Both the position numbers and the translations under genes were made by a program. From positions 124,001 to 188,000 of the forward strand of contig NZ_REGA01000003.1 of assembly GCF_003841505.1 (NCBI RefSeq): a DNA stretch of 64,000 nt, given 5' to 3'. Of this stretch, positions 28,299 through 56,745 are shown piece after piece; positions within the stretch are counted from its first letter, which is position 1; every line of letters begins with the position of its first letter. Source of the DNA: Natrarchaeobius chitinivorans. Lineage in GTDB: Archaea > Halobacteriota > Halobacteria > Halobacteriales > Natrialbaceae. Under the pieces are notes generated by a model. The model worked only from the letters and a program-made list of their open reading frames with translations. It did not search any database and had not been told where the DNA came from.

Positions 28299-28382
28299 TA
28301 TAGTAGCCACCGGAAGTCAGTGCACACCCGATCGCCGATCCGTCCCGGACCCGGTGTGCAATGACGTTCAGTGGCTACTATA
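28299..28382. repeat. Family-2 palindromic element, copy 2
   Basis: An 84-bp element with perfect 12-bp inverted ends: TATAGTAGCCAC at 28299-28310 and GTGGCTACTATA at 28371-28382. The inner arms TGCACACC and GGTGTGCA are also complementary, so the RNA would fold into one long hairpin. It lies 114 bp before the uvrB start and marks the left edge of the AT-rich island. Confidence 0.88.
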
Positions 28383-28481
28383 ACTCTCTATACTTTCTCT
28401 GGTACTGATATGGGTGGCCGATCAAACCATCTGCAGTTCCACAGGATCTGCTGTAATCCATTTCCCTGGTCCGCAAGAGAA

Positions 28482-28507: not shown

Positions 28508-29284
28508 ATGGCCGGAAACGACACCGGAGATTCGGAGGGGGAGATAACTTCTGTTTTACGGGGGTTCGAAATTCTGGAACTTTTGAAGAATAGTGGCCCA
28601 ATGACCGTTTCAGAAGTATCAGAAGAATTGGATCTCCCGTGGAGCACGACACATATTTATTTACAAACTCTGGTCAAATCAAGTTCTGTTATCAGAACCG
28701 ATAACGAGTACGACTTGAGTTACATGTTCCTCCACTATGGGGGGGAGTACAGACAAAGATCAGCCATATTTGAGACAGCAAGAAAAAAGATTGACGAACT
28801 AGCTCAAGAGACTGGAGAAATTGTGGACCTGGGCGTAGAAGAAGACGGACAGCGAGTGTTAATCTACAAATCTGAAGGGAAAGAAGGGATATATGACAAT
28901 CCCCCAATCGGCGAATATACGAATATGCATTGGACTGCACTTGGGAAGGTTCTTCTTGCCCAACAGTCCGATGAGCGGGTGAAACAGATCGTCTCTCAGC
29001 ACGGTCTGCCACAGGCAACAGAATATACGATTACGAAAGAATCTACGCTATTTGATAGGTTGGATGAAATCCGTGAAAGGGGATTCGCCATCGAGGATGA
29101 GGAACGTCGATTGGGGGTAAAAGGGATAGCGGCGCCCATATTGGATCAATCGTCTGAGGAGGCGCCTGGTGCTCTGTCGATTTCGGGACCAAAGAATCGG
29201 TTCCACGACGATCGAATCAGTGAGTTGGCGGAATACTTAAACGAGTCGATAAATATAATCGAGTTAAAATACAATTATAATTGA
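28508..29284 (+). CDS. IclR family transcriptional regulator (island)
   Basis: This 258-residue regulator has an N-terminal winged helix-turn-helix (RGFEILELLKNSGPMTVSEVSEELDLPWSTTHIYLQTL, residues about 14-52) and a C-terminal ligand-binding domain (LGVEEDGQRVLIYKSEG, MHWTALGKVLLAQ, RRLGVKGIAAPILD). IclR proteins commonly control catabolic operons and sense their substrates. It is AT-rich, unlike uvrB next door, and probably controls the hydantoin-type genes that follow. It is related to, but clearly distinct from, the IclR at 44908. Confidence 0.92.
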   Translation: MAGNDTGDSEGEITSVLRGFEILELLKNSGPMTVSEVSEELDLPWSTTHIYLQTLVKSSSVIRTDNEYDLSYMFLHYGGEYRQRSAIFETARKKIDELAQETGEIVDLGVEEDGQRVLIYKSEGKEGIYDNPPIGEYTNMHWTALGKVLLAQQSDERVKQIVSQHGLPQATEYTITKESTLFDRLDEIRERGFAIEDEERRLGVKGIAAPILDQSSEEAPGALSISGPKNRFHDDRISELAEYLNESINIIELKYNYN

Positions 29285-29320: not shown

Positions 29321-29622
29321 CTATAGTAGCCACAGGACGTCACCGCACACCTGATCGCACGACGAGCGCGCGGTTCGGAGCGTACGCGGTTCGGAGCGTA
29401 CGCGGTTCGGAGCGAACGAAGTGAGCGAGAACCGCGGAACAGCGAGCGGGGAGGGACGACTCGTGAGCGAACGAAGTGAGCGAGAACCGCGGACTGGCGA
29501 ACGGCTACCGACCGGAACCGTGAGCGAGTGGACACGGGCGAGAACCGCGATGATTCGAACGGGGAACGCAGTTACCCGTGAGCGGTGCGATCAGTGTGCA
29601 ATTAGTTCCAGTTGTTACTATA
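29321..29622. repeat. Family-2 element split by a generic repeat array
   Basis: The left end CTATAGTAGCCAC (29321-29333) plus GGACGTCACCGCACACCTGATCG and the right end GATCAGTGTGCAATTAGTTCC then GTTGTTACTATA (29611-29622) are the two halves of a family-2 element. About 200 bp of GC-rich repeats lie between: CGGTTCGGAGCGTACG three times, then GAGCGAACGAAGTGAGCGAG twice, with GAACCGCG blocks. Similar GAGCGAACGAAGTGAGCGAG strings are common in haloarchaeal genomes (recall). The element sits between the 3' ends of the IclR and racemase genes. Confidence 0.75.
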
Positions 29623-29637
29623 TTCTTGACTGAGTTA

Positions 29638-30381
29638 TTAGAATTGGTAGAGCTGTTCGTACCCCTCGATGCGCTTCGATTCTGGTTGTTTATATGTCAT
29701 CACTTTGCTTGTAGTCTTTCCTAACCGTACTAGTGATTCAGTAAGCACGGAGGCAGCAGCAGTACTGTCGATGACTGGAACTGGTAGTTCCGCTTCCAGC
29801 TCACGATCCAGGCCCCCCATTCCGGCACACCCCAGACAAATGACTTCTGCGTTGTCTTCGCGAATCGCGTCTTTGCTCGCTTCAAGGAGTGCCGAAACAG
29901 TAGCTTCTCGATCGTGTTCTGTTTCAACAACTGTTAAATCTGTGCATCTGACAGATTGACACTTATCTTCGAGTCCTGACTTCTTTACTGTTCCTTCGGT
30001 AAGATTTCGTGCTCGAGGAAGAACGGTAACTACAGAGAAGTTTGCCCCAAGCATGTTTGCGATATACATGGACGCCTCTCCAATCCCGACGACCGGTTTT
30101 GAGGTAATCTCGCGACAAGCATTGATACCGGGATCTCCCCAGCAAGCATTAATATATGCATCATATGCCGAATCCTCTTCCCGCTCTGATTTTAGAATTT
30201 CTTCTAGCACTCCAGGAATAGACAAATAATCGTCATAGTACGATTCAATACTCTCTGGGCCATGGTCAGGAGAGACGCCAACAACGTCTGTCTCTGGTGA
30301 AGTATATTTGTTGGCAACTTCTTGGATATTCTGCGTCATTTCTTCTGTCGTATTTGGGTTTATAGCTTTGATTTTTATCAT
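29638..30381 (-). CDS. Hydantoin/Asp-Glu racemase family protein
   Basis: This 247-residue protein belongs to the Asp/Glu/hydantoin racemase family. It has the INPNT opening, the first catalytic cysteine C80 in NACWGDPG and the second C185 in CLGCAGM, which fits a two-base racemase. It would interconvert D- and L-5-substituted hydantoins or a similar ureide. It follows the cyclic amidohydrolase by 41 bp on the same strand, so they form an operon, and the carbamoylase is divergent. Allantoin racemase is an equally possible identity. Confidence 0.88.
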   Translation of the reverse strand: MIKIKAINPNTTEEMTQNIQEVANKYTSPETDVVGVSPDHGPESIESYYDDYLSIPGVLEEILKSEREEDSAYDAYINACWGDPGINACREITSKPVVGIGEASMYIANMLGANFSVVTVLPRARNLTEGTVKKSGLEDKCQSVRCTDLTVVETEHDREATVSALLEASKDAIREDNAEVICLGCAGMGGLDRELEAELPVPVIDSTAAASVLTESLVRLGKTTSKVMTYKQPESKRIEGYEQLYQF

Positions 30382-30422: not shown

Positions 30423-31820
30423 TTAGTTCTGCCAATCTGGGACTTCGCGAGCAACGTACTTTCCATGACCAGGGCTTCCGACGACGTGTTCATCACGGAC
30501 GACAAACTCTCCACGGACCATCGTATGAGTGACGCTACCCTGAATCGTTCTCCCGTCATAGATTGAATAATCCGATTTAGATGCATTATCTTCGGATGTG
30601 ATCGTATGACGCTTACTTGGATCGAAGAACACGAGGTCAGCATCAGTTCCCGGTTCGAGTGTACCCTTATTCGAGAAACCAAAGATCTGGGCTGGCTGTG
30701 TTGACATCACTTTGACGACAAAGGATGGCGAGTAGTTTCTGCGATTGACAGCTTCATCGTAAAATACGGGCAACGATCGTTGTAGGCTATTCGCACCGTA
30801 CGGACAATCCCACCAGTTTTCTACGGATTTCCTATCACGAGTATATGCAACGTGGTCGGTAGACACAACATCTAACGTCCCTTCCGATAGATACTCGAAC
30901 ATTGACTCCACGTCACTCGGCGATCTGATCGGAGGCGACAGTTGTGCGAGGGTTCCGATTTCGGAAAAGACCGAGTCATCAAGCGCGGCGTAATGCGTGC
31001 ACGTTTCACCACGAACAAGCTCGCTTCCGTATTCGCCCCGATACCGTTTGATCACCTCGCCAGCCTTCTGGCAACTCGTATGAATCCCGTAGTACTTGCA
31101 GTTGGCCTCCATGGCCATTCGGAGTGCGTCATCCGCAGCCATCGCTTCGGCATAGTCGGGTCGGGAATCAGGATAGTCTGTGGGATCACCTCGATCTTGT
31201 TCTTTGAGTATCTTCGTTTGCTCTTCGCAGACGGATTCATCTTCAGTATGTAGAACAGCAACAGCGTCTAAGTTAGAGAGATGATCGAATACTCGCCCCA
31301 TGAACCCGTTCGATACCCCCCAATCGTAAACCGAGAACATCTTGAACGACGTTACACCTTCATCAATAACCTCTGACAATTCTTCAAAAAGATCTGGGTC
31401 TTCTCGAATTATCGTCCCATGAAGGCCATAGTCGATCAGGGACTCGCCTGCTGTGCTTTTTTGATACTCAATCCCGTCTAACAACGTCCCCGTTTCAGGG
31501 TCGTCTGCCCCTTTTTCGGCCCCCTGCCATGCAAAATCGATAATTGTCGTTACTCCTCCGAGAGCGGCCGCAGCGCTACCAGTATCGTACGTTTCTAGGG
31601 GGTCATCGATGAACGGATTCGTCCCGTCAAAATGGACGTGTGGATCGACGATACCCGGTAGCACGAGATAACCGCTTGCATCTATTGTTTGCGACGAATT
31701 GGGAAGCGTTGATTCGTCACCGACCGCTACAATTTTTTCTCCGTCGATCGCTATTCCAGTTTCTAATATACTGTCTGCGGTAACTAGTGTTCCGTTTTTA
31801 ATAACCGTGTCTACCGGCAT
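30423..31820 (-). CDS. Cyclic amidohydrolase (hydantoinase/dihydropyrimidinase/allantoinase type)
   Basis: This 465-residue enzyme opens cyclic ureides at a two-metal centre. Likely ligands are H61 and H63 (DPHVHFD), the carboxylated K160 (TSFKMF), H191 (LHTED), H247 (IHTSC) and D322 (STDHVAY). The segment EIGTLAQLSPPIR is allantoinase-like, while the overall layout is hydantoinase-like. The ATG at 31820 is preferred to the GTG at 31829 because a TATA box (TTTATTATAC, minus strand, 31841-31850) predicts transcription starting at the ATG. It leads the operon with the racemase. The exact substrate is open. Confidence 0.9.
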   Translation of the reverse strand: MPVDTVIKNGTLVTADSILETGIAIDGEKIVAVGDESTLPNSSQTIDASGYLVLPGIVDPHVHFDGTNPFIDDPLETYDTGSAAAALGGVTTIIDFAWQGAEKGADDPETGTLLDGIEYQKSTAGESLIDYGLHGTIIREDPDLFEELSEVIDEGVTSFKMFSVYDWGVSNGFMGRVFDHLSNLDAVAVLHTEDESVCEEQTKILKEQDRGDPTDYPDSRPDYAEAMAADDALRMAMEANCKYYGIHTSCQKAGEVIKRYRGEYGSELVRGETCTHYAALDDSVFSEIGTLAQLSPPIRSPSDVESMFEYLSEGTLDVVSTDHVAYTRDRKSVENWWDCPYGANSLQRSLPVFYDEAVNRRNYSPSFVVKVMSTQPAQIFGFSNKGTLEPGTDADLVFFDPSKRHTITSEDNASKSDYSIYDGRTIQGSVTHTMVRGEFVVRDEHVVGSPGHGKYVAREVPDWQN

Positions 31821-31829
31821 ACCTGGCAC

Positions 31830-31974: not shown

Positions 31975-33204
31975 ATGGACATACAACTAGACGAGCATCG
32001 TCTCCGATCAACGTTCGAACGATACTCCGAAATTGGCGGAACTGAAGACGGAGGCCTCCACAGACTTGCACTTTCCGATGCTGATAAGAAGACTCGAGAT
32101 ACCTTGATTTCGGACCTGGAGGCAGTCAATGCATCAGTTCGGATCGATAGGGTCGGCAATATCTTCGGCCGGCGTGAAGGCACTGATCCCGATGCGGATC
32201 CGATCCTCATTGGGTCCCATCTCGATTCTCAACCGTATGGCGGTCGGTACGATGGCCAGTTAGGGGTTATAGCAGCGCTCGAAACGCTCCGTACATTTGA
32301 GGAGGAGGGAATCGAGACGCGACATCCCATTGAGTTGGTTAACTGGACGAACGAAGAAGGGGCGCGATTTGATCTCGCACCGCTGGGCGTTGGCGTTTTT
32401 ACCGGCAAGTACTCCTTAGACGAAGCACTGAGTTCCACTGATGACAATGGCACGACGGTCAAAGAAGAGTTAGAGCGGATCGAATATGACGGCACTGAAC
32501 CCTGTGAACCGTTCGATATTGATTCCTACCTCGAATTACACATCGAACAAGGACCCGAATTAGAACGCCGCGGAACAAATGTTGGAATTGTCACTGGAAT
32601 TGTCGGATTGTCGTGGCTGAACGCCACGTTCCAGGGTGAGGCAGATCATGCCGGAACCACTCCCATGTACGATCGGAAGGACGCCATGGTCGCTGCGAGT
32701 CGTGGGATCGGAAACGCAAATACTATTCCTGCAAAGCTCCCAAGCGACACGGTCATAACGGCAGGAGAAGTGACTGTCCAACCAAATTCGACCAATATCA
32801 TTCCTGGAGAGGTGGTGTGTAAGTTTGATATCCGAAGCTATGATGACGATGCTAGGAACGAAGCTGTCAGCAGGCTAAAAGAGGAATTAACGATAGCCGC
32901 TGACCGAGAGGACGTCGACGTGACGTTCGAAGAGGTGTATCATACGTCGTCCTCGACATTCAGTCCACGAATTAGAAAAGCAATCCAGCGCTCGGCCCAG
33001 GACAGAGAGTACAGTGCCACCGAAATGGTGAGTAAAGCGGGGCACGATGCAATGTATATGATCGATGTCACCGACGCAGGGATGGTTTTCGTTCCGAGTG
33101 TCGACGGGAAAAGCCACTCTGAAGACGAGTTCACTCGGTGGGAGGACGTTGTCGCAGGAACAGAGGTGTTCGCTCGTACGGTCCACGAACTCGCGACCAA
33201 GTAA
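31975..33204 (+). CDS. M20 N-carbamoyl-amino acid hydrolase / allantoate amidohydrolase
   Basis: This 409-residue binuclear metallohydrolase matches the hydantoinase/carbamoylase (HyuC, AllC) group of M20. Motifs are GSHLDSQPYGGRYDGQLGV, NWTNEEGARF, LELHIEQGPELE, GEADHAGTTPM, SKAGHDAMYM and the final SHSEDEF. It would remove the carbamoyl group from the ring-opened product, giving a free amino acid (if hydantoin-derived) with CO2 and ammonia. It is divergent from the amidohydrolase and convergent with the aminotransferase. An allantoate role is an alternative. Confidence 0.9.
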   Translation: MDIQLDEHRLRSTFERYSEIGGTEDGGLHRLALSDADKKTRDTLISDLEAVNASVRIDRVGNIFGRREGTDPDADPILIGSHLDSQPYGGRYDGQLGVIAALETLRTFEEEGIETRHPIELVNWTNEEGARFDLAPLGVGVFTGKYSLDEALSSTDDNGTTVKEELERIEYDGTEPCEPFDIDSYLELHIEQGPELERRGTNVGIVTGIVGLSWLNATFQGEADHAGTTPMYDRKDAMVAASRGIGNANTIPAKLPSDTVITAGEVTVQPNSTNIIPGEVVCKFDIRSYDDDARNEAVSRLKEELTIAADREDVDVTFEEVYHTSSSTFSPRIRKAIQRSAQDREYSATEMVSKAGHDAMYMIDVTDAGMVFVPSVDGKSHSEDEFTRWEDVVAGTEVFARTVHELATK

Positions 33205-33226: not shown

Positions 33227-34411
33227 TTAGAGCACTTCATTCAGGAACGCTTCGATACGATCAAGTCCTTCATTGACGCGGTTGATATTGTTCGCAAAAC
33301 TGATCCGAACGAACCCGTCACCAGCATCACCGAACCCGCTCCCTGGGGCAGTGACGACGCCGTGGTCTAACAGAAGCCGTTCGGATATTTCTTCGCTTGA
33401 CAGGCCTGTATCTCGCATATCAAGGAAGGCATAGAAGCTTCCCTCGGGAACGGGACATGAGACCCCTTGAAGTGAATCGACACGGTCGGCGACACGATCC
33501 CGGCGCTCACGATACTTCTCATTCATCCGACGGACTGGCTCTTTTGGCCCCTCTAGTGCCGCGATTGCAGCGTGCTGGGATACGTTCGACGCACAAGCAG
33601 TGGTGTTTTCGTGGAGTTTCGTAGCCTGTGAGATGACATCTTCGGGGCCTGCAAGCCAGCCAACTCGCCATCCAGTCATCGCAAATCGTTTGGAACAGGA
33701 ATTTACAATTAGGAGGTGATCGGCTTTGCCGATTGTATCGGCGATTGCGACCGACTCGTCGTCATATACGATGGTGTTGTAAACCTCGTCAACGAGGAGA
33801 TACGCATCGTGTTCTTCTGCAAGATCGGCGATCTGTTCTACCTTACTGGCATCATATATTCTACCTGTTGGATTCGACGGGCGGGTCAGAACGACGAGAC
33901 TTGTGTCATCCGAGATTGTCTCCTCAATTGTGTCAAGGTCGATCTCAAATGAACCACCGGATAGTGGGACTGTTTTCGGAACCCCGCCAACCATCTTCGT
34001 TTGTGCTTGGTAACTTGGCCAAGCAGGTGTTGGAATAATGACCTCATCTCCTGAATCAACAACAGTCAGCATCGCGAGGTACAACGCCTCCATACCGCCG
34101 TTCGTCACGACGATATCTGTGGCAGGGTTATAATCTGCTCCGAGTTTACCATGTCGAGCAATTGCCTCGCGGAGATTCAATAGACCCGCATTGGCGGTGT
34201 AATCCGTTTTACCCGCTTCAGCGGCTTGAGCTCCGGCTTGGACAATATGTTCTGGCGTATCGAAATCTGGTTCGCCGATTTCGAGGTGAACGAGATCCCC
34301 GTCATAATCAGCTGCTCGATCAAACATTATTCGAATACTTGATCGGTCAACACTCCGTGATCGAGCGGATACCCCTCTATATTGGGGCGGCTGCGGCTCA
34401 TCTGAAGCCAT
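33227..34411 (-). CDS. PLP-dependent aminotransferase, class I/II
   Basis: This 394-residue fold-type I aminotransferase has HLEIGEPDFDTP near residue 40, the Asn/Asp of SNPTGRIYD and LLVDEVYN, the PLP lysine in NSCSKRFAMTGWRVGWLAG, and the terminal Arg region GFVRISFAN. It would transaminate the amino acid released by the carbamoylase into a 2-oxo acid (inference from context). The ATG at 34411 is supported by a TATA-like GGTATAAATAC (minus strand, 34433-34443) 27 nt upstream; the longer frame to 34501 has no homologous look. Confidence 0.92.
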   Translation of the reverse strand: MASDEPQPPQYRGVSARSRSVDRSSIRIMFDRAADYDGDLVHLEIGEPDFDTPEHIVQAGAQAAEAGKTDYTANAGLLNLREAIARHGKLGADYNPATDIVVTNGGMEALYLAMLTVVDSGDEVIIPTPAWPSYQAQTKMVGGVPKTVPLSGGSFEIDLDTIEETISDDTSLVVLTRPSNPTGRIYDASKVEQIADLAEEHDAYLLVDEVYNTIVYDDESVAIADTIGKADHLLIVNSCSKRFAMTGWRVGWLAGPEDVISQATKLHENTTACASNVSQHAAIAALEGPKEPVRRMNEKYRERRDRVADRVDSLQGVSCPVPEGSFYAFLDMRDTGLSSEEISERLLLDHGVVTAPGSGFGDAGDGFVRISFANNINRVNEGLDRIEAFLNEVL

Positions 34412-34615
34412 AACTATACCGGCATGTTGCCAGTATTTATACCTTTCGGGTTGAGAGGGATTCCGGCTGGCACAGCAAACACCGAACCGACTCCAGATCA
34501 AAGGTGGTAAAACAAAAACACACAGAAGGCAATCTCAACTATATTGAGGGGTACTACAAATCAATTGCTTATATGTATGGCCTTCCTGGCCAGAATTTAC
34601 GAGTAACTCCTGGAA

Positions 34616-34637
34616 ATTACATATGTGCCCATGTAAT
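34616..34637. promoter_or_regulatory. 22-bp imperfect palindrome, operator-like copy 1
   Basis: ATTACATATGTG followed by CCCATGTAAT. The outer arms ATTACAT and ATGTAAT pair. It is matched by the perfect copy at 34791. Confidence 0.6.
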
Positions 34638-34790
34638 ACGGTGAGTGTCTACCGTATCAGGTATTTGGAATGCAATTTTGCTATAGAAGTAGGGATGCGT
34701 GTGACCACTCATCTCAACTATGTTGATATTACCGCTACTGGTCCGTGTAACCCTGATCGTTTATATTCTCGGTTCCAGGTCGACCCAGAA

Positions 34791-34812
34791 ATTACACATG
34801 TACATGTGTAAT
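34791..34812. promoter_or_regulatory. 22-bp perfect palindrome, operator-like copy 2
   Basis: ATTACACATGT followed by its exact complement ACATGTGTAAT. It starts about 26-31 nt after a TATA-like TTTATATT (34760-34767), that is, where transcription would start, which suits a repressor site. Confidence 0.65.
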
Positions 34813-35316
34813 TCGAGACCATCGAATCGTGCGATTCAGTTGGAAGCGACACACCTGAAAGAGGCCGACATCTCAATAATATTGAGGTGGGGTGGGAATA
34901 CTCGAAAGCACTTCTATCTACGAAGGACGGCTGATTCAGAATGGGCAACTCAGCCGACCTGGGAAGAATCAAAAACCACACGTCAGCATAACTTGCATCG
35001 ATGGCGCTTCCGGCGCGTAAACTAACTATGACAGCAAGACCCCGGTATTGCGCCATGTTGCAGGTAGGTTGTTCGGTCTGGTGGTTCGAGGAATATCTCC
35101 CGATGAAAACCACTGCAAAGTACTACTGATATTGGCAACGTAGTAGAGGAACTCAGTCGGCCGATGAACACCGTTAGATTGCCGAATTGATCAACTGACC
35201 ACAACGATGATCGAATTCTTTGAGTACTCAGTCTACTCCGTAGGCAAGTCAATACCGATGACAGCATTCGTCCAAATCAAAGATTATATATGTGTGGAAT
35301 GTATCTGGTGGTGTGT

Positions 35317-36447
35317 ATGGTGGTAGGCCCTAGCGATAATGATCACAAGTACCGACGACGCAAATTGTTAACACTCGGTTCGGCGGTGGCCCTTGGTGGT
35401 TTGGCCGGTTGTGTTGGTGATGACGACGAGGATAGTGATGGATCCCCAGTAAATGGGGATGAATCCTCAGGAAATGGCGGTGGATCCGATAACGGTGACG
35501 ATGATACGATGTTGATTGGATTTGCAAATAAAACGCTTGGAGTGCCGTTTTTTGCCCGTCAAGAGGATGGATTCCATCAGGCTGTCGAAACTGACCTGGC
35601 CGATCACCCGTCGCACTTGGAGGCCAGCGAGATCGAAGGGGCAGGCATTGAGGTTCCTTCATTAGACGGTTCGACGTTCAATGCAGAAATGTCCGAGTCT
35701 AGCCAGATAGATCAACTCGAAACCTTTCTCTCCCGTGATCCGGACGCCGTGATTATCAACCCAGTCAGTCCGACAGGGGCTAATCCCGCACTTGAAGAGT
35801 ACCGCGAAGAGGATATTCCAGTAATCAATATTGACACAGAAATAACCGAGTTTGAGCCCGATACATACATCGCGTCTCGGAACATCGAGCTAGGTCGACG
35901 GGCGGGTGAACTCCTGCTCGAATTCCTGGATGATGCTTACGATAAGTCCTCTTATAATGTGGTCGAGCTCCAGGGAGCCGCGGGTGACGTCGGTACAAGA
36001 GAACGACACTCCGGGTTTAGAGAAGCGCTGGAGGATTCCTCCGTTGACGTAATCGGTGACGAACATGCTGACTGGGCAGCACAGCAAGCGCTTGATGCAA
36101 TGGAAGATATGATCACTCGTCACGGAGAGGATATTGACGGTGTGTACGCACACAACGACTTTATGGCCGAAGGTGCATATCAAGCATTAGAAGGCAGCGA
36201 CATGGGACCACTTCCAACCACCAGCATCGATGGATCTGAACTCTGGGTCACCAAGTTTGATGAGTATGAGTACTATGGCAGTATCGCACAGCAGCCAGAG
36301 AACATGACCAGACTTGGCATCGAGAAGGCTCTCATGGTTGCAAATGATATCGACATTCAGGACTACTACCCGATCCCTGGAATCCGAGTGACCTCGGAAA
36401 ACGCCGAAGATTACCTCGCCGAATTCTTCCCTGACGCAGAAATGTAA
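35317..36447 (+). CDS. Ribose-type ABC transporter substrate-binding lipoprotein
   Basis: This 376-residue lipoprotein has a Tat signal (YRRRKLL), a lipobox LAGC, an acidic Gly-rich linker, and a Peripla_BP_4 domain of the RbsB type (LIGFANKTLGVPFF, DAVIINPVSPTG, VYAHNDFMAEGAY). The ATG at 35317 is preferred over the one at 35290 because the TATA box at 35283-35290 predicts transcription starting near 35312. It heads an importer with the ATPase and permease genes downstream. RbsB-type proteins bind sugars, but relatives bind other polar cargo; the neighbours suggest a ureide or hydantoin (inference). Confidence 0.87.
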   Translation: MVVGPSDNDHKYRRRKLLTLGSAVALGGLAGCVGDDDEDSDGSPVNGDESSGNGGGSDNGDDDTMLIGFANKTLGVPFFARQEDGFHQAVETDLADHPSHLEASEIEGAGIEVPSLDGSTFNAEMSESSQIDQLETFLSRDPDAVIINPVSPTGANPALEEYREEDIPVINIDTEITEFEPDTYIASRNIELGRRAGELLLEFLDDAYDKSSYNVVELQGAAGDVGTRERHSGFREALEDSSVDVIGDEHADWAAQQALDAMEDMITRHGEDIDGVYAHNDFMAEGAYQALEGSDMGPLPTTSIDGSELWVTKFDEYEYYGSIAQQPENMTRLGIEKALMVANDIDIQDYYPIPGIRVTSENAEDYLAEFFPDAEM

Positions 36448-36733: not shown

Positions 36734-37492
36734 ATGCCCGATAGAGAGGTACTGATAACGGCAGAAGACATCACAGTTACATACGGTGAAGTGACAGCTT
36801 TAGATGGAGTTGATTTTCGACTAAACAGTCAAGAGATTGTCGGACTTGTCGGAGATAATGGGGCTGGAAAGTCAACACTGATCAAGTGCTTGTCAGGGGT
36901 GACACAGCCTGATAGTGGCGAAATTCGGATCAAGGGTGAGGCAGCCAATCTATCAAACCCGCGTGATGCTAAAGATAAAGGGATCGAGACTGCATTTCAG
37001 GATCTAGCTCTCGCTGACAATATGACTGTGACCCAAAATATATTCCTCGGTAGAGAAGAAGTCCAACACGTCGGTGGTATCCTTCCATTCTTGGACAAAG
37101 GGAAGATGAAACAACGAACGGAAGAACTACTAGATCGTGTTAATATCGATATTTCTCCCGACGAGAAGGTAAAAAACCTGTCCGGAGGTGAACGACAGTT
37201 AGTAGCGATATCACGAACTCTCCTTTCTGATCCCGATATCGTAATTCTTGACGAGCCGACAAGTGCGCTGTCAGTTGAAGGTGCTGAACAGGTTATTGAC
37301 CTGATTGAAGGGCTACGTGAGCAGGGTATTTCTATAATCCTCATATCACATAATTTCGAAATTGTCAAGCGGGTGGTTGATCGGATGCAGATACTGTATC
37401 AAGGGACGAATGCTGGTGTGCTTCCATCTGATGCCGAACGTGACGAAATAGTCAGTCGTATGGTTGCAGGACAGCCTCAACAAACAGCTTAA
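36734..37492 (+). CDS. Ribose-type ABC transporter ATP-binding protein, single domain
   Basis: This 252-residue ATPase has Walker A GDNGAGKST, Q-loop FQDLALADNMTVTQNIFLGR, signature LSGGERQ, Walker B IVILDEPTSAL and switch His in ILISHNFE. It resembles one half of RbsA/MglA, which usually carries two ATPase domains; here only one is present, so it would work as a homodimer. A TATA-like CTATTTAATAG (about 36702-36712) precedes it, so it may have its own promoter in the 286-bp gap after the binding-protein gene. It is 17 bp before the permease. Confidence 0.92.
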   Translation: MPDREVLITAEDITVTYGEVTALDGVDFRLNSQEIVGLVGDNGAGKSTLIKCLSGVTQPDSGEIRIKGEAANLSNPRDAKDKGIETAFQDLALADNMTVTQNIFLGREEVQHVGGILPFLDKGKMKQRTEELLDRVNIDISPDEKVKNLSGGERQLVAISRTLLSDPDIVILDEPTSALSVEGAEQVIDLIEGLREQGISIILISHNFEIVKRVVDRMQILYQGTNAGVLPSDAERDEIVSRMVAGQPQQTA

Positions 37493-37509: not shown

Positions 37510-38487
37510 ATGATAGAAGGAAATCAATCCATTGGTGAACGGTTCGCGAACATCGATTCAAGCTCGATCGGAAGACATGCGCCGATTGTTGGTCTTATTG
37601 GAATGTATGCCTTATTTGGGATATACACTGAAAACTTTTTGACAGTCTCTAACCAGATTAACGTACTGAATCAATCTGCGATAATCGGTGTTCTTGCGAT
37701 CGGGATGAGTTTCGCCATCTTCTGTGGCGAGATCGACCTGAGTGTGGCAGAAATCATGCAATTTGTCGGATTGTTAATAGCTGCGCTCGCAACGGGAATG
37801 CTCATGTGGCCACAATTGCCTCCACTCGTTGCAATCATAATTGGTCTACTCGTCGGTGTTGGCCTCGGCGGTGTTTCCGGTTACATTACGAGTCGATTTG
37901 ATGTGCCCTCATTTATGACAACACTTGCGATGCTCTTTCTCGCTAGTGGCTTTGGGCTTATAACTACGAACAGTAGGCCTGTTCTATCACTTCCTGGTGA
38001 ATTAGTGTTCTTCGGTGGAGAGTCAATATTATCCGTCCCGGTTCTTGTCATTGTTTTCATAGCATGTATTGTGTTGGGTCAGCTTATTCTCTCATATACT
38101 CGATTTGGACAGCATGTGTACGCAGTCGGAGGCAACAGGGAAGCAGCAGCGAGGATGGGTGTTAATGTAATGCGAATCAGGATGGGCGTCATCATGATAT
38201 CCGGTGGCTTTGCAGCGCTTGCTGGTTTGCTTATGCTCGGTCGCATTGGATCGGCCACTCCCACCATGGGAGTTGGATATCTTCTTCCACCCATTGCAGC
38301 CGTTGTTCTCGGAGGGGCTGACCTGTTTGGAGGCGAAGGACATATGTACGGCACACTGATTGGTGTACTTATTCTCGCTGTTCTGTCCAACGGTCTGAAT
38401 CTAATGGGCGTCAGTACCGAGGCGCAACTTGTTGCTCAGGGAATAATCTTGATGCTTGCTGTAATCGCGAACGTGATGTTCAGATAA
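37510..38487 (+). CDS. Ribose-type ABC transporter permease
   Basis: This 325-residue membrane protein of the BPD_transp_2 (RbsC) type has about eight to ten helices. Conserved parts are VLAIGMSFAIFCGEIDLSV, the motif YAVGGNREAAARMGVNVMRI (the coupling region) and AAVVLGGADLFGGEGHMYGT. It completes the island importer. Codon use remains AT-rich, as in the rest of the island. Confidence 0.93.
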   Translation: MIEGNQSIGERFANIDSSSIGRHAPIVGLIGMYALFGIYTENFLTVSNQINVLNQSAIIGVLAIGMSFAIFCGEIDLSVAEIMQFVGLLIAALATGMLMWPQLPPLVAIIIGLLVGVGLGGVSGYITSRFDVPSFMTTLAMLFLASGFGLITTNSRPVLSLPGELVFFGGESILSVPVLVIVFIACIVLGQLILSYTRFGQHVYAVGGNREAAARMGVNVMRIRMGVIMISGGFAALAGLLMLGRIGSATPTMGVGYLLPPIAAVVLGGADLFGGEGHMYGTLIGVLILAVLSNGLNLMGVSTEAQLVAQGIILMLAVIANVMFR

Positions 38488-39362
38488 AAGAATCCTCGAC
38501 TTTGATGTGCTTATTGACGAGTTCTTTCGCCAGTTGACTGGGTTTTGCTGTTTCTCGTAGAGTCGAAAGCACAGTGGATATAGTAGCCATTGAACGTCAC
38601 TGCACACCAATCACCAGACGGATCGGCGATCGGTGTGTGAATCGGTTCAGTTGTTACTATTGGTGGAGTTTTTCTCGATATAAACCGCGTAGGTTTCGTT
38701 AGTAATCTGGACTAGTTCGTTTTCTGTTGAAGCGTCCTTATCTCAGTCGTACTCCCTGAGGAACTTGTTAAGCACACGTCTCGTGCGTTCAAGTGACTAT
38801 TGAAATTTGATGAGCCTTATTGAATACAACTAGTGACATCCGATGTTAGAAATTAGCACACTCGGAGTGCTCGAGGACACGAAGTGTGACATAGAGTGTT
38901 CGCCATCCAATGTCTAAAGAATTATAATTCTACTTCGATTCGGAGATATACATGATAATTGGAATTTTCACACACTATCTACTGTGTACCGTATTCTCTT
39001 CCATGCGAATCGGAAAGTGTATCGACAATTTATCGATTTGATAGATAGAGTATAAGGGACTAAAAACCAATATAGTCCAAATACTCGTCGTTGTGGGGTT
39101 CTTTATTGCTCCAACACCTCTAACTGAGGTTCAAGATTGATGGAACTTCCGTATAATGTTCTGTGATAATACAAACTAATGACGAGAAGTCAAATCTGAC
39201 CTTCGATTCGAGTTTAAATCACTTATCGAAATCCAACTCCACCGGGTTTGCCCACAACCGAATTCTTAACCCGTCCTGACCGAGACTGTCACTCGAGTTG
39301 ATGGGAAGCGATACGCTCGAGTACCGAAACGACACCGGTCAGTCATTGATCTGGCGCAAACG
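38488..39362. other. 875-bp AT-rich intergenic stretch, right side of island
   Basis: Besides the family-2 element at 38579-38660 I see no complete gene. Small inverted repeats occur (AGCACACTCGGAGTGCT at about 38857-38873). A short minus-strand frame just after 38740 could be the tail of a lost gene, but it is too short to name. Composition returns to high GC at about 39240, which I take as the right edge of the island. Confidence 0.5.
38579..38660. repeat. Family-2 palindromic element, copy 4
   Basis: It begins TATAGTAGCCATTGAACGTC and ends CAGTTGTTACTAT, with complementary inner arms TGCACACC and GGTGTGTG and the shared block GATCGGCGATCGG. It lies 91 bp after the permease stop, at the right side of the AT-rich island, mirroring the copy at 28299 on the left. 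Confidence 0.85.
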
Positions 39363-43979: not shown

Positions 43980-44907
43980 CCGCCACCGTCGGGCGTATTT
44001 TCACGCGCCCATCGGACCGACTGTTCGTCGTATTCGGGTGATCGGTGCGTTTCGAACCGATCCGGTACGCTCGGTCGAGCGTTCACTAACTGCGGTCGCG
44101 AACCGGTATCCGGACGCGACCAGTTCGCAAAACTGCCGACTCGGATCGGAATCGTCGATCCACAGAACAGTAATCGGAGTGATACTACTGGTGAGGCGTA
44201 CGCGGTTGGATAGAATCCAGTGATCGACGGTCACCCTGCTACCCTCGTCGTCTTCGGATACCCCTCACCCTCTCCCGATCGGACTTCTTCGCTACCTGCC
44301 CGCCGCTGAAAATCAGCGCATACGGACTTCTCGATGGTTCTTGCGTCCCACTGCTCTCGTTCGTCGAAGCGGCAACACAACGTTCGACCGATTTCACAGC
44401 GGGTGTCGTTCGTACGATCTTTCGACAGGAGAAATTCGAACGCAAGAGAAGGTCGAGGAGCGCATGGTGGCTATTTCCGATCTTTGAGATATTTATCCGG
44501 AAACAACCGCGAACTGGGTGTTTCGGAAGAGGAAATCACTGTCCGTCGACCGGTGGCGTTTTGACATATTGAACTCATGTACTTTATCCAGACGTATTCT
44601 ATTGTGGAACTGTGTACACTCCCCGTTCGTCCGGGTTTGTTCCCCTTATCAGTACGACTTCGTGATTCGGTCAGCAGAGAATCATCTGGTCCCGGCTCCG
44701 GCGATACGTGCCGACGGAACATTACACCCATACATTCGTAAACTAAGTGTTTCGGAACCGAGACCACCAGACAACTGAACCGGTCGTAGACCCATCGTCT
44801 ACCCGCCTGAGAGCAAGGAGTCACGGATCGTGCGCTGGCCGCTGGGGAACGTCGCCGGTAACGCGACCCCAGCCCCCACGTCCGGTGTTCAGCATCGTCG
44901 AACGGTA
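43980..44907. other. 928-bp intergenic stretch, nothing recognised
   Basis: It lies between the permease gene and the 3' end of the IclR gene. Open frames are short and lack any family resemblance. Its composition is more even than that of coding neighbours. I see no element of families 1-3, tRNA or insertion sequence. It may be decayed sequence. Confidence 0.5.
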
Positions 44908-45672
44908 CTACGCGTGCTGGATGTTGAGCTCGATGACGTTGGCGATGCCGAGTACCGTCTCGGGGAGTTCCGTCTCGAAGCGATTGCCCTGCATTCTGTG
45001 TGTGGGTCCGGCAACGCTGATGGAGCCGATCACCGAGTTCGATCCGTCGAGAATGGGGGCAGCGACGCTTCGCAACCCGTTCAACCGTTCTTCGTCGTCG
45101 TACGCGATCTTTCGTTCTCGAATGTCTTCGAGTTCCTCGGAGAGAACGTCGCGGTCGGTGATCGTGTTGTGGTTGACCGCCGTCAGGCCGTGTCGCTCGA
45201 CGATCTCGTTTCGACGGTCCGCCGGGAGAAATGCCAGGATGGCTTTCCCCAGTGCCGTGCAGTGAATGGGGACCCGGTCGCCGACGCACGTGTCGATACG
45301 GGCAGCTTCGGAGCCACGACTCCGATAGACGAAGACGCCCCGACCGTGCTCTTCGGTCATGAGCGCGGATATCTCGCCGGTTTTCTCGGCCAGATGATCG
45401 ACCTCGGACCGGGCGACCTGGTACAGTTCGTGTTGCTTGCGAGCGGTTTCGCTGATCCGAAGGAACTTCAGGCCCGCTCGATACTCGCCGTCCTCGTGGA
45501 CGACGTACTCGGTCTGCTCGAGCGTCCGAAGGTGGTTGTGTGCGGTGCTTTTGGGCAAGTCGACGTGTCTCGCGAGTTCCGAAACCCCAGCACCGTCGAG
45601 TTCGGTCAGGGCTTCCACGATGTCGAACGCCCGATCGACCGCCTGTATCCCGATCGACTCCTGTTTCGCCAT
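44908..45672 (-). CDS. IclR family transcriptional regulator
   Basis: This 254-residue regulator has a winged helix-turn-helix (ELARHVDLPKSTAHNHLRTLEQ, about residues 31-52) and the IclR effector domain (HCTALGKAILAFLP, NGLRSVAAPILDGSNSVIGSISVAGP). A TATA box (ATTTATATC, minus strand, about 45696-45704) lies about 28 nt before the ATG, so the mRNA is leaderless. A palindrome fills the space between, as an autorepressor site would. Neighbouring targets may be the importer at 40775 or the catabolic genes from 45875 on. Confidence 0.93.
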   Translation of the reverse strand: MAKQESIGIQAVDRAFDIVEALTELDGAGVSELARHVDLPKSTAHNHLRTLEQTEYVVHEDGEYRAGLKFLRISETARKQHELYQVARSEVDHLAEKTGEISALMTEEHGRGVFVYRSRGSEAARIDTCVGDRVPIHCTALGKAILAFLPADRRNEIVERHGLTAVNHNTITDRDVLSEELEDIRERKIAYDDEERLNGLRSVAAPILDGSNSVIGSISVAGPTHRMQGNRFETELPETVLGIANVIELNIQHA

Positions 45673-48040: not shown

Positions 48041-48550
48041 ATGAGTACGGATAGCACAGGAGAGTACGACGCTCCCGAACCCAGGGAGATCACCGTCACC
48101 GTCAACGGGGAGTCCGTGACCGCCGCGGTCGAACCCCGATTGAAGCTCTCCGATTTTCTCCGGACCGAGTGTGGTCTCAACGGCGTCCGCGTCGGCTGCG
48201 AGCACGGCGTCTGCGGTGCCTGCACCGTCCAGCAGGACGGTCGGGCGGTAAAGAGCTGTCTCTCGTACGCGGTCCAGGCCGACGGCGCGGAGATCGAGAC
48301 GGTCGAGGGGCTGGCCGACGACGACGGCTCGCTTCACCCCATACAGGAGGCGTTTCACGAGACTCACGCGCTCCAGTGTGGGTTCTGTACGAGCGGCTTC
48401 GTCGTCGCGACGAAGGAACTGCTCGAGGAGAACCCCGATCCGACCCGCGAGGAGATCGAACGCGGGCTCGCGGACAACATCTGTCGGTGTACCGGCTACC
48501 AGAACATCTACGAGGCCGTCGAACGCGCGGCGGCGAAGATGAGGGAGTAA
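48041..48550 (+). CDS. Xanthine dehydrogenase-family 2Fe-2S subunit
   Basis: This 169-residue protein carries two 2Fe-2S clusters. The plant-ferredoxin type ligands are in GCEHGVCGACTV with a fourth Cys in KSCLSYA; the second cluster uses CGFCTSGF and CRCTGYQNI. It passes electrons from the molybdenum centre to FAD. A TATA-like CGTTTATGCC (about 48006-48015) is 27 nt before the ATG. It is followed after 2 bp by the large subunit. Confidence 0.95.
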   Translation: MSTDSTGEYDAPEPREITVTVNGESVTAAVEPRLKLSDFLRTECGLNGVRVGCEHGVCGACTVQQDGRAVKSCLSYAVQADGAEIETVEGLADDDGSLHPIQEAFHETHALQCGFCTSGFVVATKELLEENPDPTREEIERGLADNICRCTGYQNIYEAVERAAAKMRE

Positions 48551-48552
48551 TC

Positions 48553-51039
48553 GTGTCCCAGTCACAGCCGACCGAGGCCGACGCCGAACCGGAGTCGGAG
48601 CCCGAGTCGTTCACCGGCCAGGGGCTCCCCCGCGTCGAGGACCACCGCATCCTGACCGGCGAAGCCGAGTACATCCACGACGTGACGCCGGAGAACTGCC
48701 TGCACATGGCGCTCGTCCGGAGCATGCACGCCCACGCCGAAGTCGTCGACATCGACGCGAGCGAGGCCGAGGACCACCCCGACTGCGAACTGGTGCTCAC
48801 CGCCGAGGATCTCAAGGCGAACTACAATCCGATGCCGACCGGCGTCGGCCGCATCGAAATCGGAGCGAGCGGCGAAGCCGTCGAACTCCCCGAGTGGTCG
48901 CTGGCGGACGAAAAGGTGCGGTTCGTCGGCGAGCCAGTCGCGCTGGTCGTCGCCTCGAACCGGTACGCGGCCGAAGACGTCGCCGACCTCGTGACCGTCG
49001 AGTACGACACTCTCGAGGCCGTCGCGGACGGGATGGCCGCCCGCGAAGACGAGGTGGTCGTCCACGAGTCGATCGGGACGAACGTCGTCGACCACGAACG
49101 CATCGAGTTCGGCGACCCCGAGACGGCGTTCGAGGACGCCGATCACGTCGTCTCCGGCGAGTATTCGTGGGGGCGCATCTCCGGTGTCCCCCTCGAGACC
49201 GCAGGCGTCGTCGCGACGTACGACGAGGAGACGGACAGCTTCGACGTCGACTGCAACATCCAGTTGCACACGCTCGTCGACGACACGATCTACGAGACGC
49301 TCGGCTACGACGCCGACGACGTCCGGGTGAACGTACCCGCGGACGTCGGCGGGAGCTACGGGACGAAGATCGCCATCCACCGCTATTGCTGTCTGGCCGC
49401 GATGGCGAGCCAGCAGTTGAATCGCCCGGTCAAGTTCGAGGAGGACCGCATCGAGAACCTCCAGGGCGGCGACGTACACTCCTCGGACCGCGAGTACGAG
49501 ATCCGAATGGCCGTCGACGACGATGGAACGATGCGAGGGCTCGACGTCTGGTTCGTCGACGACTTCGGCGCGTTCCCCCGATATCCGATCAATCAGGTGC
49601 TGAAGCCGCTGTCCGTGGTGACGAACTCCTACGTGATCGACGACGTCGCCTACGAGTACGACCTCGTCCTCACCAACAAGACCTCACAGACCGCCTACCG
49701 CGGCTTCGGCGTCGATCCCCACATCTACGCCCTCGAGATGGTCGTCGATGCGGCGGCCAGGGAGATCGGGATGGACCCGACCGAGTTCCGCCGTCGAAAC
49801 CTGATCACGCCGGATCAGATGCCCTACACCCTCCCCTCGAAGAACGTCTACGACTCCGGGGACTACCCCGCGACGCTCGATCGAATCGAGGAGATCATCG
49901 AGGACGAACGCGACGGCGGGCTGCTCGATCCCGACGTCGTCGCCGAAAAGCGCGAGGAGGGCAAGTACCGCGGCGTCCAGACGAGCGTCATCATCGAACC
50001 CGGCGTCAGCGGCTCCGACTGGACCGACCGACAGCGGTCCAACCGCGAAGCGCTCGAGAGCAGGTCGCGCGAGGAGGTCGACGAACTGCCCGAACACCTG
50101 CGCGCCGAACTCCGCGAGGACGGCACCGTCCGCGCGTATCTGGCGACCGACTCGTCCGGGCAGGGCCACCAGACGCTCGTCTCACAGCTGCTCGCAGACG
50201 AACTCGAGATCCTGCCCAGCGAGATCGACGTCGACTACCTCGACAGCGTCGACGCCCCGACGGAGTACGGCAGCGCCGCCTCGCGAATGGCGGTCATGCT
50301 CTCGGGCGCGACGGTCGGTCTCGCGGAACGGCTCGTCGAACGCGCCGAGGAACTCGCGGCCGACCACTGGGACGTCCCGGCCGACGACGTCTCCTACCGG
50401 GACGGGACCGTCGAGTTGATCGACGGCAGCGATTCGCTCTCGCTCGCCGACCTCGCGGAACTCGACGCCGAGCGCGACGAGCGACTGACCCGCGTGAGCT
50501 ACAACTACGACCATCCGGCCCTCGAACACGAGGAGTTCGACGAGGCGTTCCGCCGGAAGTTCCCGGTCTACCCGACCGCCGCGTTCGGCGCGAACGCGCC
50601 TATCGTCGAGGTCGACGTCGGGACCGGCGAGGTCGAGATCCTTAAATTCCACACGGTCCGGGACTGTGGAACCATGCTCAACCCGACCATCGTCGAGGGG
50701 CAGGCCCACGGCGGCATCGCCCAGGGAGTCGGCGCGGCCCTGCTGGAGGAGTTCGGCTACGAGGCCGACGGCCAGCCCCAGGCGATCACGCTGTTCGATT
50801 ACCTCCTGCCCTCGATCGAGACCGTTCCCGAGATCGAGATGGAACACACCGAGACGCCGTCGCCGTACACCGAGACGGGCGCGAAAGGCGTCGGCGAGGG
50901 CGGGATGATCGACGCACCGGCGAGCATCGCCACGTCCATCAACGCCGCCCTCGAGCCGCTATCGCTCGACGAACCTGCGGACCGGATCCCGGTCGCGCCG
51001 GACCACCTGCGATCGAAGATCCGAGACGCCGAGGAGTAG
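48553..51039 (+). CDS. Xanthine dehydrogenase-family molybdopterin-binding subunit
   Basis: This 828-residue catalytic subunit binds the molybdenum cofactor. Visible features are GEAEYIHDV near the N-terminus, VRFVGEPVALVVA, the cofactor loop QTAYRGFGVDPH and the C-terminal GAKGVGEGGMID with the likely catalytic Glu. The loop reads AYRGFG, as in xanthine-type hydroxylases; the AYRCSF of true carbon monoxide dehydrogenase is absent. The start is the GTG at 48553, 2 bp after the small-subunit stop. It should hydroxylate an N-heterocycle or aldehyde; the substrate is unknown. The FAD subunit is encoded on the other strand at 51760. Confidence 0.92.
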   Translation: MSQSQPTEADAEPESEPESFTGQGLPRVEDHRILTGEAEYIHDVTPENCLHMALVRSMHAHAEVVDIDASEAEDHPDCELVLTAEDLKANYNPMPTGVGRIEIGASGEAVELPEWSLADEKVRFVGEPVALVVASNRYAAEDVADLVTVEYDTLEAVADGMAAREDEVVVHESIGTNVVDHERIEFGDPETAFEDADHVVSGEYSWGRISGVPLETAGVVATYDEETDSFDVDCNIQLHTLVDDTIYETLGYDADDVRVNVPADVGGSYGTKIAIHRYCCLAAMASQQLNRPVKFEEDRIENLQGGDVHSSDREYEIRMAVDDDGTMRGLDVWFVDDFGAFPRYPINQVLKPLSVVTNSYVIDDVAYEYDLVLTNKTSQTAYRGFGVDPHIYALEMVVDAAAREIGMDPTEFRRRNLITPDQMPYTLPSKNVYDSGDYPATLDRIEEIIEDERDGGLLDPDVVAEKREEGKYRGVQTSVIIEPGVSGSDWTDRQRSNREALESRSREEVDELPEHLRAELREDGTVRAYLATDSSGQGHQTLVSQLLADELEILPSEIDVDYLDSVDAPTEYGSAASRMAVMLSGATVGLAERLVERAEELAADHWDVPADDVSYRDGTVELIDGSDSLSLADLAELDAERDERLTRVSYNYDHPALEHEEFDEAFRRKFPVYPTAAFGANAPIVEVDVGTGEVEILKFHTVRDCGTMLNPTIVEGQAHGGIAQGVGAALLEEFGYEADGQPQAITLFDYLLPSIETVPEIEMEHTETPSPYTETGAKGVGEGGMIDAPASIATSINAALEPLSLDEPADRIPVAPDHLRSKIRDAEE

Positions 51040-51759: not shown

Positions 51760-52653
51760 TCATTGCGTCTCGATCGCGCGTTCGTAGGACGTTTCGAGCG
51801 AGCGTTTGGCGTACTCGCCGGCCACTTCCTCTTTGTACTCCCGATCCGCGTGCATCTCGCCTTCCGGCTTGACCGCGGCCGTGACGAGTGTTGTGGCTTC
51901 CTCGAGGCCCGCATCTGAGAGCGGTTCACCGACCAGGGCCTCCTCCGCGTCCGGCACGCGGAGGGGAACGTCGGCGGCGTTTGCCAGCGCGATCCGGACG
52001 TCTTCGAGGACGGGGTCGTCGGCGTCCGGATCGTCGACCCTGATCGCGGTCGCCGCGCTGACGGTCGGCCAGGTCTGTGCTGCACGCTTGAGTTCGAGAA
52101 ACGCCATGCCCGTTCGAGCGGGCGGGAACGGATCGGTCGGCACCGAGACGGACTCGATCAGTTCGTCCTCGCGGAGGTCCGTGAACATGTACGCGATGAA
52201 GTACTCGTCAGCGGGGACGTCTCGGCTGCCGTCGCCAGAGCGCAGGTGGAGGGTTCCCTCGAGGGCGACCAGCGCCGCGGGATAGTTTCCAGCAGGGTCC
52301 GCCTCACCGATACTGCCGCCGATCGTTCCCCGGTTTCGAACCGCGGGACCGGCGATCTGGGCCGCCGCTTCGGGGAGCATCGGCAGGCGTTCCGCGAGCA
52401 GGTCCGACCGCTCGAGGGTCCGGTGGCGGGTCATCGCGCCGATCCGAACCTCGTCGTCGGTCTCCTCGACGTACGCGAGGTCGTCGACGCCGTTCAGATC
52501 GACGAGATGGTCGGGCGTCGCCAGCCGGTTCGCCATCACGATACCGAGCGACTGGTTGCCGGCGAGGAGTTCGGCCTCCTCGAGTTCCACGAGCAACTCG
52601 AGGACCTCCTCGAGTGACTCCGGCCGGTGGTGGGTAAACGGCGCCGGTTTCAT
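51760..52653 (-). CDS. Xanthine dehydrogenase-family FAD subunit
   Basis: This 297-residue protein binds FAD and passes electrons onward from the 2Fe-2S subunit. Motifs are LLAGNQSLGIVMANRL (the first FAD loop), the RNRGTIGGSIGEADPAGNYPA signature at about residues 105-125 and a C-terminal CO_deh_flav_C domain. Unlike the usual M-S-L operon order, it is encoded convergently to the other two subunits, with coxG behind it. The start region faces the cyclase gene across two 13-bp palindromes. Confidence 0.92.
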   Translation of the reverse strand: MKPAPFTHHRPESLEEVLELLVELEEAELLAGNQSLGIVMANRLATPDHLVDLNGVDDLAYVEETDDEVRIGAMTRHRTLERSDLLAERLPMLPEAAAQIAGPAVRNRGTIGGSIGEADPAGNYPAALVALEGTLHLRSGDGSRDVPADEYFIAYMFTDLREDELIESVSVPTDPFPPARTGMAFLELKRAAQTWPTVSAATAIRVDDPDADDPVLEDVRIALANAADVPLRVPDAEEALVGEPLSDAGLEEATTLVTAAVKPEGEMHADREYKEEVAGEYAKRSLETSYERAIETQ

Positions 52654-56315: not shown

Positions 56316-56745
56316 CAGCCAAACGGACGTACTCGAACAGTAATATACTGTCGGACGAAACGACTCGTGTTCGCACGAACTGGCCGTATCAGCGCGAACT
56401 GGCCGCAACAGCACGAACTACCTGGCCACGTTAGCACGAACTGACCGCGGTCCCGGTGATCACACTCGAGTGAGTCGCCGTCTGAACGCTTGGAAAGTCA
56501 CCGTTTCCCGCCTGGTGAGCCGGTGATACGTCTCCTTGACGGGACGTTCTCTCCCGGTGTTACTCATTTGCCACTCTTTCCACCCGTGAAAGGTCACTGA
56601 TTATTTATATAATCGACGGTTGAACGGCGCCCGCACGCGGTTTACCGGCGGTATCTTTATATGTATACGCTTTGGTTTTACTTCGTAGACCTGTGCGGGT
56701 GTGAACACTCGACACAGTGTGCGAGCTAACTCAGGGAGCGAATCC
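56316..56745. promoter_or_regulatory. Intergenic region with short tandem repeat and two promoters
   Basis: From 56373 to 56446 the string GCACGAACTGGCC recurs four times in slightly changed form at a period of about 19-23 bp. The leftward promoter serves the CocE gene. A rightward TATA-like CTTTATATG (56655-56663) would start transcription near 56690 for the permease. A 12-nt half of the family-3 terminus (ATACTGTCGGAC) is at 56345. Confidence 0.55.

Follow-up and report, generated by a model that had tools for sequence, protein, structure and literature searches.

The window analyzed here is a 64,000-nucleotide stretch of the Natrarchaeobius chitinivorans genome. Its GC content is 57–72% over most of its length and falls to 45–53% between 28 and 39 kb. 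This low-GC island carries genes for an IclR-family regulator (IclR 28508), a racemase, hydantoinase-like and carbamoylase-like enzymes, an aminotransferase, and an importer of the RbsB/ATPase/RbsC type (Table 1). No regulator family other than IclR was identified in the island, and no Lrp gene is present there. Short, MITE-like elements with inverted ends (TATAGTAGCCA ... GTTACTATA) bracket the island at 28300–28387, 29322–29627, and 38581–38662, and at least 40 copies of them occur in the genome. A 16-bp unit, CGCGGTTCGGAGCGTA, is present in three tandem copies at 29369–29418. Molybdopterin dehydrogenase subunits and a xanthine/uracil permease are encoded near the hydantoinase cluster (48169–51039, 51760–52653, and 56701–58332), hinting at nucleobase metabolism. 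A pattern scan found no close relatives of the importer protein, and only two relatives, with 39% identity, were found among 125 genomes of the family. The low-GC stretch was likely acquired as a cargo island.

Table 1. Positions of genes, palindromes, and predicted promoter elements in the low-GC island
Feature	Position	Strand	Remarks
IclR-family regulator	28508..29284	+	candidate ligand of L1 and L2
Asp/Glu/hydantoin racemase family	29638..30381	-	
Dihydropyrimidinase/hydantoinase-like amidohydrolase	30423..31829	-	
N-carbamoylase/allantoate amidohydrolase-like M20 enzyme	31975..33204	+	
Aminotransferase class I/II	33227..34411	-	ATG at 34411
BRE/TATA of aminotransferase gene	34435..34448	-	CGAAAGGTATAAAT; score 15.0; predicted start ~34414
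Short box S1	34534..34548	.	CTCAACTATATTGAG; exact CTCAA-N5-TTGAG
Weaker promoter-like site, L1-S1 gap (leftward)	34567..34580	-	CCATACATATAAGC; score 10.5; predicted start ~34546, inside S1
Long palindrome L1	34616..34637	.	ATTACATATGTGCCCATGTAAT; inner imperfections; 1 mismatch to ATTACA-N3-GTAC-N3-TGTAAT
Short box S2	34713..34727	.	CTCAACTATGTTGAT; 1 mismatch to CTCAA-N5-TTGAG
Long palindrome L2	34790..34813 (22-bp core 34791-34812)	.	AATTACACATGTACATGTGTAATT; perfect over 24 bp
Short box S3	34872..34886	.	CTCAATAATATTGAG; exact CTCAA-N5-TTGAG
BRE/TATA of importer gene	35278..35291	+	CAAAGATTATATAT; score 11.6; predicted start ~35312
RbsB-type substrate-binding lipoprotein, first importer gene	35317..36447	+	ORF listed from 35290; likely ATG 35317
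Importer ATPase, single ABC domain	36734..37492	+	
Importer permease, BPD_transp_2 (RbsC-like)	37510..38487	+	

The leftward aminotransferase gene and the rightward RbsB-type importer gene bound a spacer of about 0.9 kb (869 bp), in which two kinds of palindrome, short (S) and long (L), alternate in the order S1-L1-S2-L2-S3. The S boxes are spaced by 179 and 159 bp and the L palindromes by 175 bp; the step from an S start to the next L start is 82 and then 78 bp, and neighboring starts across the array lie 78–97 bp apart. The preliminary description of this DNA had reported two 22-bp palindromes, one perfect, alternating at regular spacing with three CTCAA-N5-TTGAG repeats. Our measurements agree with the alternation and with the palindromes, the perfect one (L2) reaching 24 bp, but the count of repeats was slightly generous because only S1 and S3 are exact and the middle copy, S2, has one mismatch.

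The spacer was compared with 300 dinucleotide shuffles of itself. A perfect 22-bp palindrome arose in none of the shuffles, and neither did an 18-mer found three times at an identity of at least 15/18. Short boxes with up to one mismatch, of which three are observed, averaged 0.03 per shuffle with a maximum of 1. The S and L motifs are therefore real and not chance occurrences. The array had also been read as a duplicated operator-promoter block, and this did not survive comparison of the two blocks, which show no similarity outside the motifs (local score 7 after masking, against a mean of 8.7 for shuffled unmasked blocks). Segmental duplication was rejected as the likeness stops at the motifs; the array is made of repeated sites rather than a duplicated segment.

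A genome search with ATTACACATGTACATGTGTAAT, allowing up to three mismatches, returned one further site, located 1.1 kb from an IclR paralog that is 43% identical to IclR 28508. The IclR-associated motif ATTACA-N3-GTAC-N3-TGTAAT, to which L2 is an exact match, occurs at 28 genome sites with up to two mismatches, versus 0 for the reversed control pattern. Seventeen IclR genes were collected, first with a PF09339 scan and then with a two-sequence profile. Half of the L sites (14/28) lie within 2 kb of one of these genes, a zone that makes up 1.8% of the genome (binomial p 1.4e-17); an L site lies within 7 kb of 14 of the 17 genes. IclR 28508 is farther from its nearest L sites than most IclR genes, and no L site besides those of the array lies near it. 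Pairs of L sites 102–262 bp apart are found at four places in the genome, the window's included; another such pair, at L009:4536–4557 and L009:4798–4819, sits beside an IclR paralog with a separation of 262 bp. The window's second IclR gene (44908–45672, minus strand) has a weaker L-type palindrome of its own just past its 3′ end (44721–44742, 25.9 bits).

The association of L with IclR genes extends to other species. Of 125 family genomes, 74 contain a related L pattern; the reversed control has almost no matches. Orthologs of IclR 28508 (approximately 50% identity) from 20 other haloarchaeal genomes formed an independent test set, with 13 hydantoinase loci for comparison, and both sets were searched for the class motif ATWAC-N4-GTAC-N4-GTWAT with up to two mismatches. 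Within 700 bp of the orthologous IclR genes there were 20 matches in 43 kb, compared with 4 in 339 kb elsewhere, a 39-fold higher density, although this count is not fully blind because the ATAAC variant was added after some of the IclR loci had been seen. Such a nearby match was found at 16 of the 20 orthologous loci, and a matrix built from sites of the window genome alone also gave matches beside most of the 20. The hydantoinase loci had 4 class-motif matches in 254 kb and no L site beyond one ATAAC variant and two at 25–28 bits, one of which lies 265 bp after an IclR gene. In the two family members with 39% identical importers, neither an IclR homolog (E 1e-15) nor an L site was found nearby. 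On a Haloferax larsenii plasmid stretch, both IclR genes are accompanied by sites no more than 200 bp away. In H. hispanica, the IclR gene that matches mscR by its cluster content is followed, 12 bp past the stop codon, by the ATAAC variant ATAACGGGCGTACTACTGTTAT; a scan of the gaps before the targets of this mscR-like gene found no L-type site. Growth on mannitol and sorbitol requires MscR, and the phenotype of its deletion is interpreted as that of an activator (PMC11519228). Because L clusters at IclR genes both in this genome and across species, it is most likely the operator of haloarchaeal IclR-family proteins, and the sequence evidence makes IclR 28508 a likely ligand.

S behaves differently from L. 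The pattern CTCAA-N2-AT-N-TTGAG with up to one mismatch picked up all three array copies; its other matches were weaker, scattered, and fewer than in the control. Exact CTCAA-N5-TTGAG occurs three times in the genome, and its sole copy outside the array, on contig C41, was rejected as a further S site; judged by eye, it sits in tRNA-like sequence. A search for S+L pairs in 84,980 genomes gave four bacterial, chance-like matches only. Among 392 genomes of the order, the sole match to the array DNA was the window itself, and the array is absent from the hydantoinase loci, including those of three genomes from the same genus; with the array in no sampled relative, S has no phylogenetic support. 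S is thus confined to the array. The genome searches for both palindromes support the earlier proposal that the array is regulatory and combines two different types of palindrome. Random scatter, which would have spoken against that proposal, was not seen: L gave 28 sites versus 0 for its control and S was essentially array-only. The earlier suggestion that the IclR protein from 28508 is involved gains support from the clustering of L at IclR genes, seen both throughout this genome and in other members of the order.

Promoters were predicted with a BRE/TATA matrix trained on 104 upstream regions of this genome. The predicted aminotransferase start falls just before its ATG, and the predictions for this gene and the importer gene suggest leaderless starts for both. 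A leftward promoter-like site that overlaps the importer promoter scored 12.7 and faces the array. By these scores, the strongest promoter-like sites appear to lie at the array edges and not at the TATA box at 34760. That TATA box had been expected to start transcription on the perfect palindrome, but it scored only 6.5 rightward (7.8 leftward, at 34772); the strong sites are those at 34448 and 35278. Between L1 and the aminotransferase TATA there are approximately 188 bp, and between L2 and the importer TATA approximately 480 bp. The L sites elsewhere in the genome showed no consistent offset from a TATA box, so geometry does not decide between an activator and a repressor role.

Taken together, the spacer looks like a two-input control region of a probably acquired catabolic gene cluster. 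We think it probable that an IclR protein, most likely IclR 28508, acts at L1 and L2 and that a second regulator acts at the S boxes, so that the two control the divergent aminotransferase and importer genes. L1 and L2 would be the operators of the IclR-family regulator encoded in the same low-GC cluster, with an IclR dimer on each 22-bp palindrome. IclR proteins are able to act as tetramers, and one tetramer may therefore bridge L1 and L2 across 175 bp. When the substrate of the cluster is present, the regulator would act as a switch on the promoters at either side, most likely an activating one; characterized haloarchaeal IclR proteins are known as activators, and we favor activation by analogy with them. 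From the enzymes encoded, the effector may be a hydantoin-, carbamoyl-, or nucleobase-type compound. The three S boxes would bind a second regulator of separate specificity that modulates the same region, which would serve both the leftward and the rightward gene. Against this model, IclR 28508 lies 5.3 kb from L1 and L2, and the 17 IclR paralogs could compete for them. Bacterial IclR sites are usually found at -20 to -80 (PMC8222616), a range outside which L1 and L2 fall.

A single IclR system might contact both S and L as a composite or three-box-like operator; the regular alternation at 78–97 bp start to start and an island with no other identified regulator family are consistent with this, and bacterial IclR proteins can employ extra boxes (PMC8222616). 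S and L have no half-site in common, however, and S is found neither at any of the 20 orthologous IclR loci nor beside L elsewhere in the genome, making a single regulator rather improbable. The S boxes could instead be bound by a regulator of the Lrp/AsnC family that controls the aminotransferase and importer genes. In layout they resemble archaeal Lrp boxes, being 15-bp, 5-N5-5 palindromes with an AT-rich center in multiple copies. There is a precedent in BarR of the Sulfolobales, which binds three Lrp boxes adjoining an aminotransferase gene (PMC10201364), and the genome has 7 AsnC-domain (Lrp/AsnC) loci. None of these loci has an S box within 1.5 kb, however, and the island lacks an Lrp gene. 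Lrp sites are normally two or three helical turns apart (PMC2995911), not 159 and 179 bp as for S, and we regard an Lrp/AsnC regulator as unlikely. A similarly low probability is given to L1 and L2 belonging to another IclR paralog such as 44908–45672. The L class motif is common to the 17 IclR proteins, the variable N3 may carry specificity, and this second gene is just 10 kb away; but it already has its own site at 44721, whereas IclR 28508 is otherwise without a nearby site and shares the low-GC island with the array.

We consider two further readings very improbable. The array might drive an unrecognized small RNA or a short leader, as the preliminary description had also suggested, and weak leftward promoter-like sites do occur between the boxes, at 34580 (score 10.5) and 34772 (score 7.8). 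No Rfam match was found in the region, a result that leaves room for an RNA of a new type; the 131-amino-acid ORF at 34718–35113 has no Pfam match, and the DNA is not conserved among the 392 genomes, so this suggestion is unsupported. Equally, the region might be decayed or accidental sequence that has no function and arrived along with the acquired cluster. That S is private to this array, and the array to this genome among the relatives sampled, would fit such an origin; but L2 perfectly matches a motif kept across the order, and the local motif density is far above that of the shuffles. Control of the divergent genes by an IclR protein at L and a second regulator at S remains our preferred reading.

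To our knowledge, binding sites have been assigned for few archaeal regulators. If the L assignment is true, a single operator shape would serve the haloarchaeal IclR proteins, and their regulons could be read from genome sequence. The 28 natural sites beside 17 paralogs in one genome would make a specificity code testable, and the array would offer a natural example in which the sites of two regulators alternate within one spacer.

XacR, RhcR, GacR, and MscR are haloarchaeal IclR-family activators whose clusters handle sugars or sugar alcohols. The locus described here resembles theirs in that its IclR gene belongs to a catabolic cluster that includes an ABC importer, and a related palindrome lies 12 bp after the mscR-matching gene of H. 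hispanica. It differs in its hydantoinase, carbamoylase, and aminotransferase genes, in its two candidate operators 175 bp apart, and in the added S boxes. No description of the haloarchaeal L motif class was found in the literature searched; the published XacR motif (Johnsen 2015) was outside the comparison. The S array recalls the Lrp boxes of BarR, several 15-bp semi-palindromes with AT-rich centers in a spacer beside an aminotransferase gene (PMC10201364), but it has no adjacent Lrp gene, far larger spacing, and a different half-site. IclR operators are already a known kind. In bacteria, they are palindromes bound by IclR dimers and often paired, as predicted for L, with the consensuses GKTYCRY-W3-4-RYGRAMC (group 1) and TGRAACA-N1-2-TGTTYCA (group 2) (PMC8222616). 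By eye, the haloarchaeal 22-mer ATWAC-N4-GTAC-N4-GTWAT, with its central GTAC, fits neither consensus, and the L pairs of this genome are 102–262 bp apart, compared with 18–22 nt for paired bacterial IclR sites. It is possible, though we put it forward only tentatively, that haloarchaeal IclR proteins share a family-wide operator grammar with specificity in the N positions, and that a private second operator for another regulator, alternating with it, makes this spacer a two-input, looped control element.
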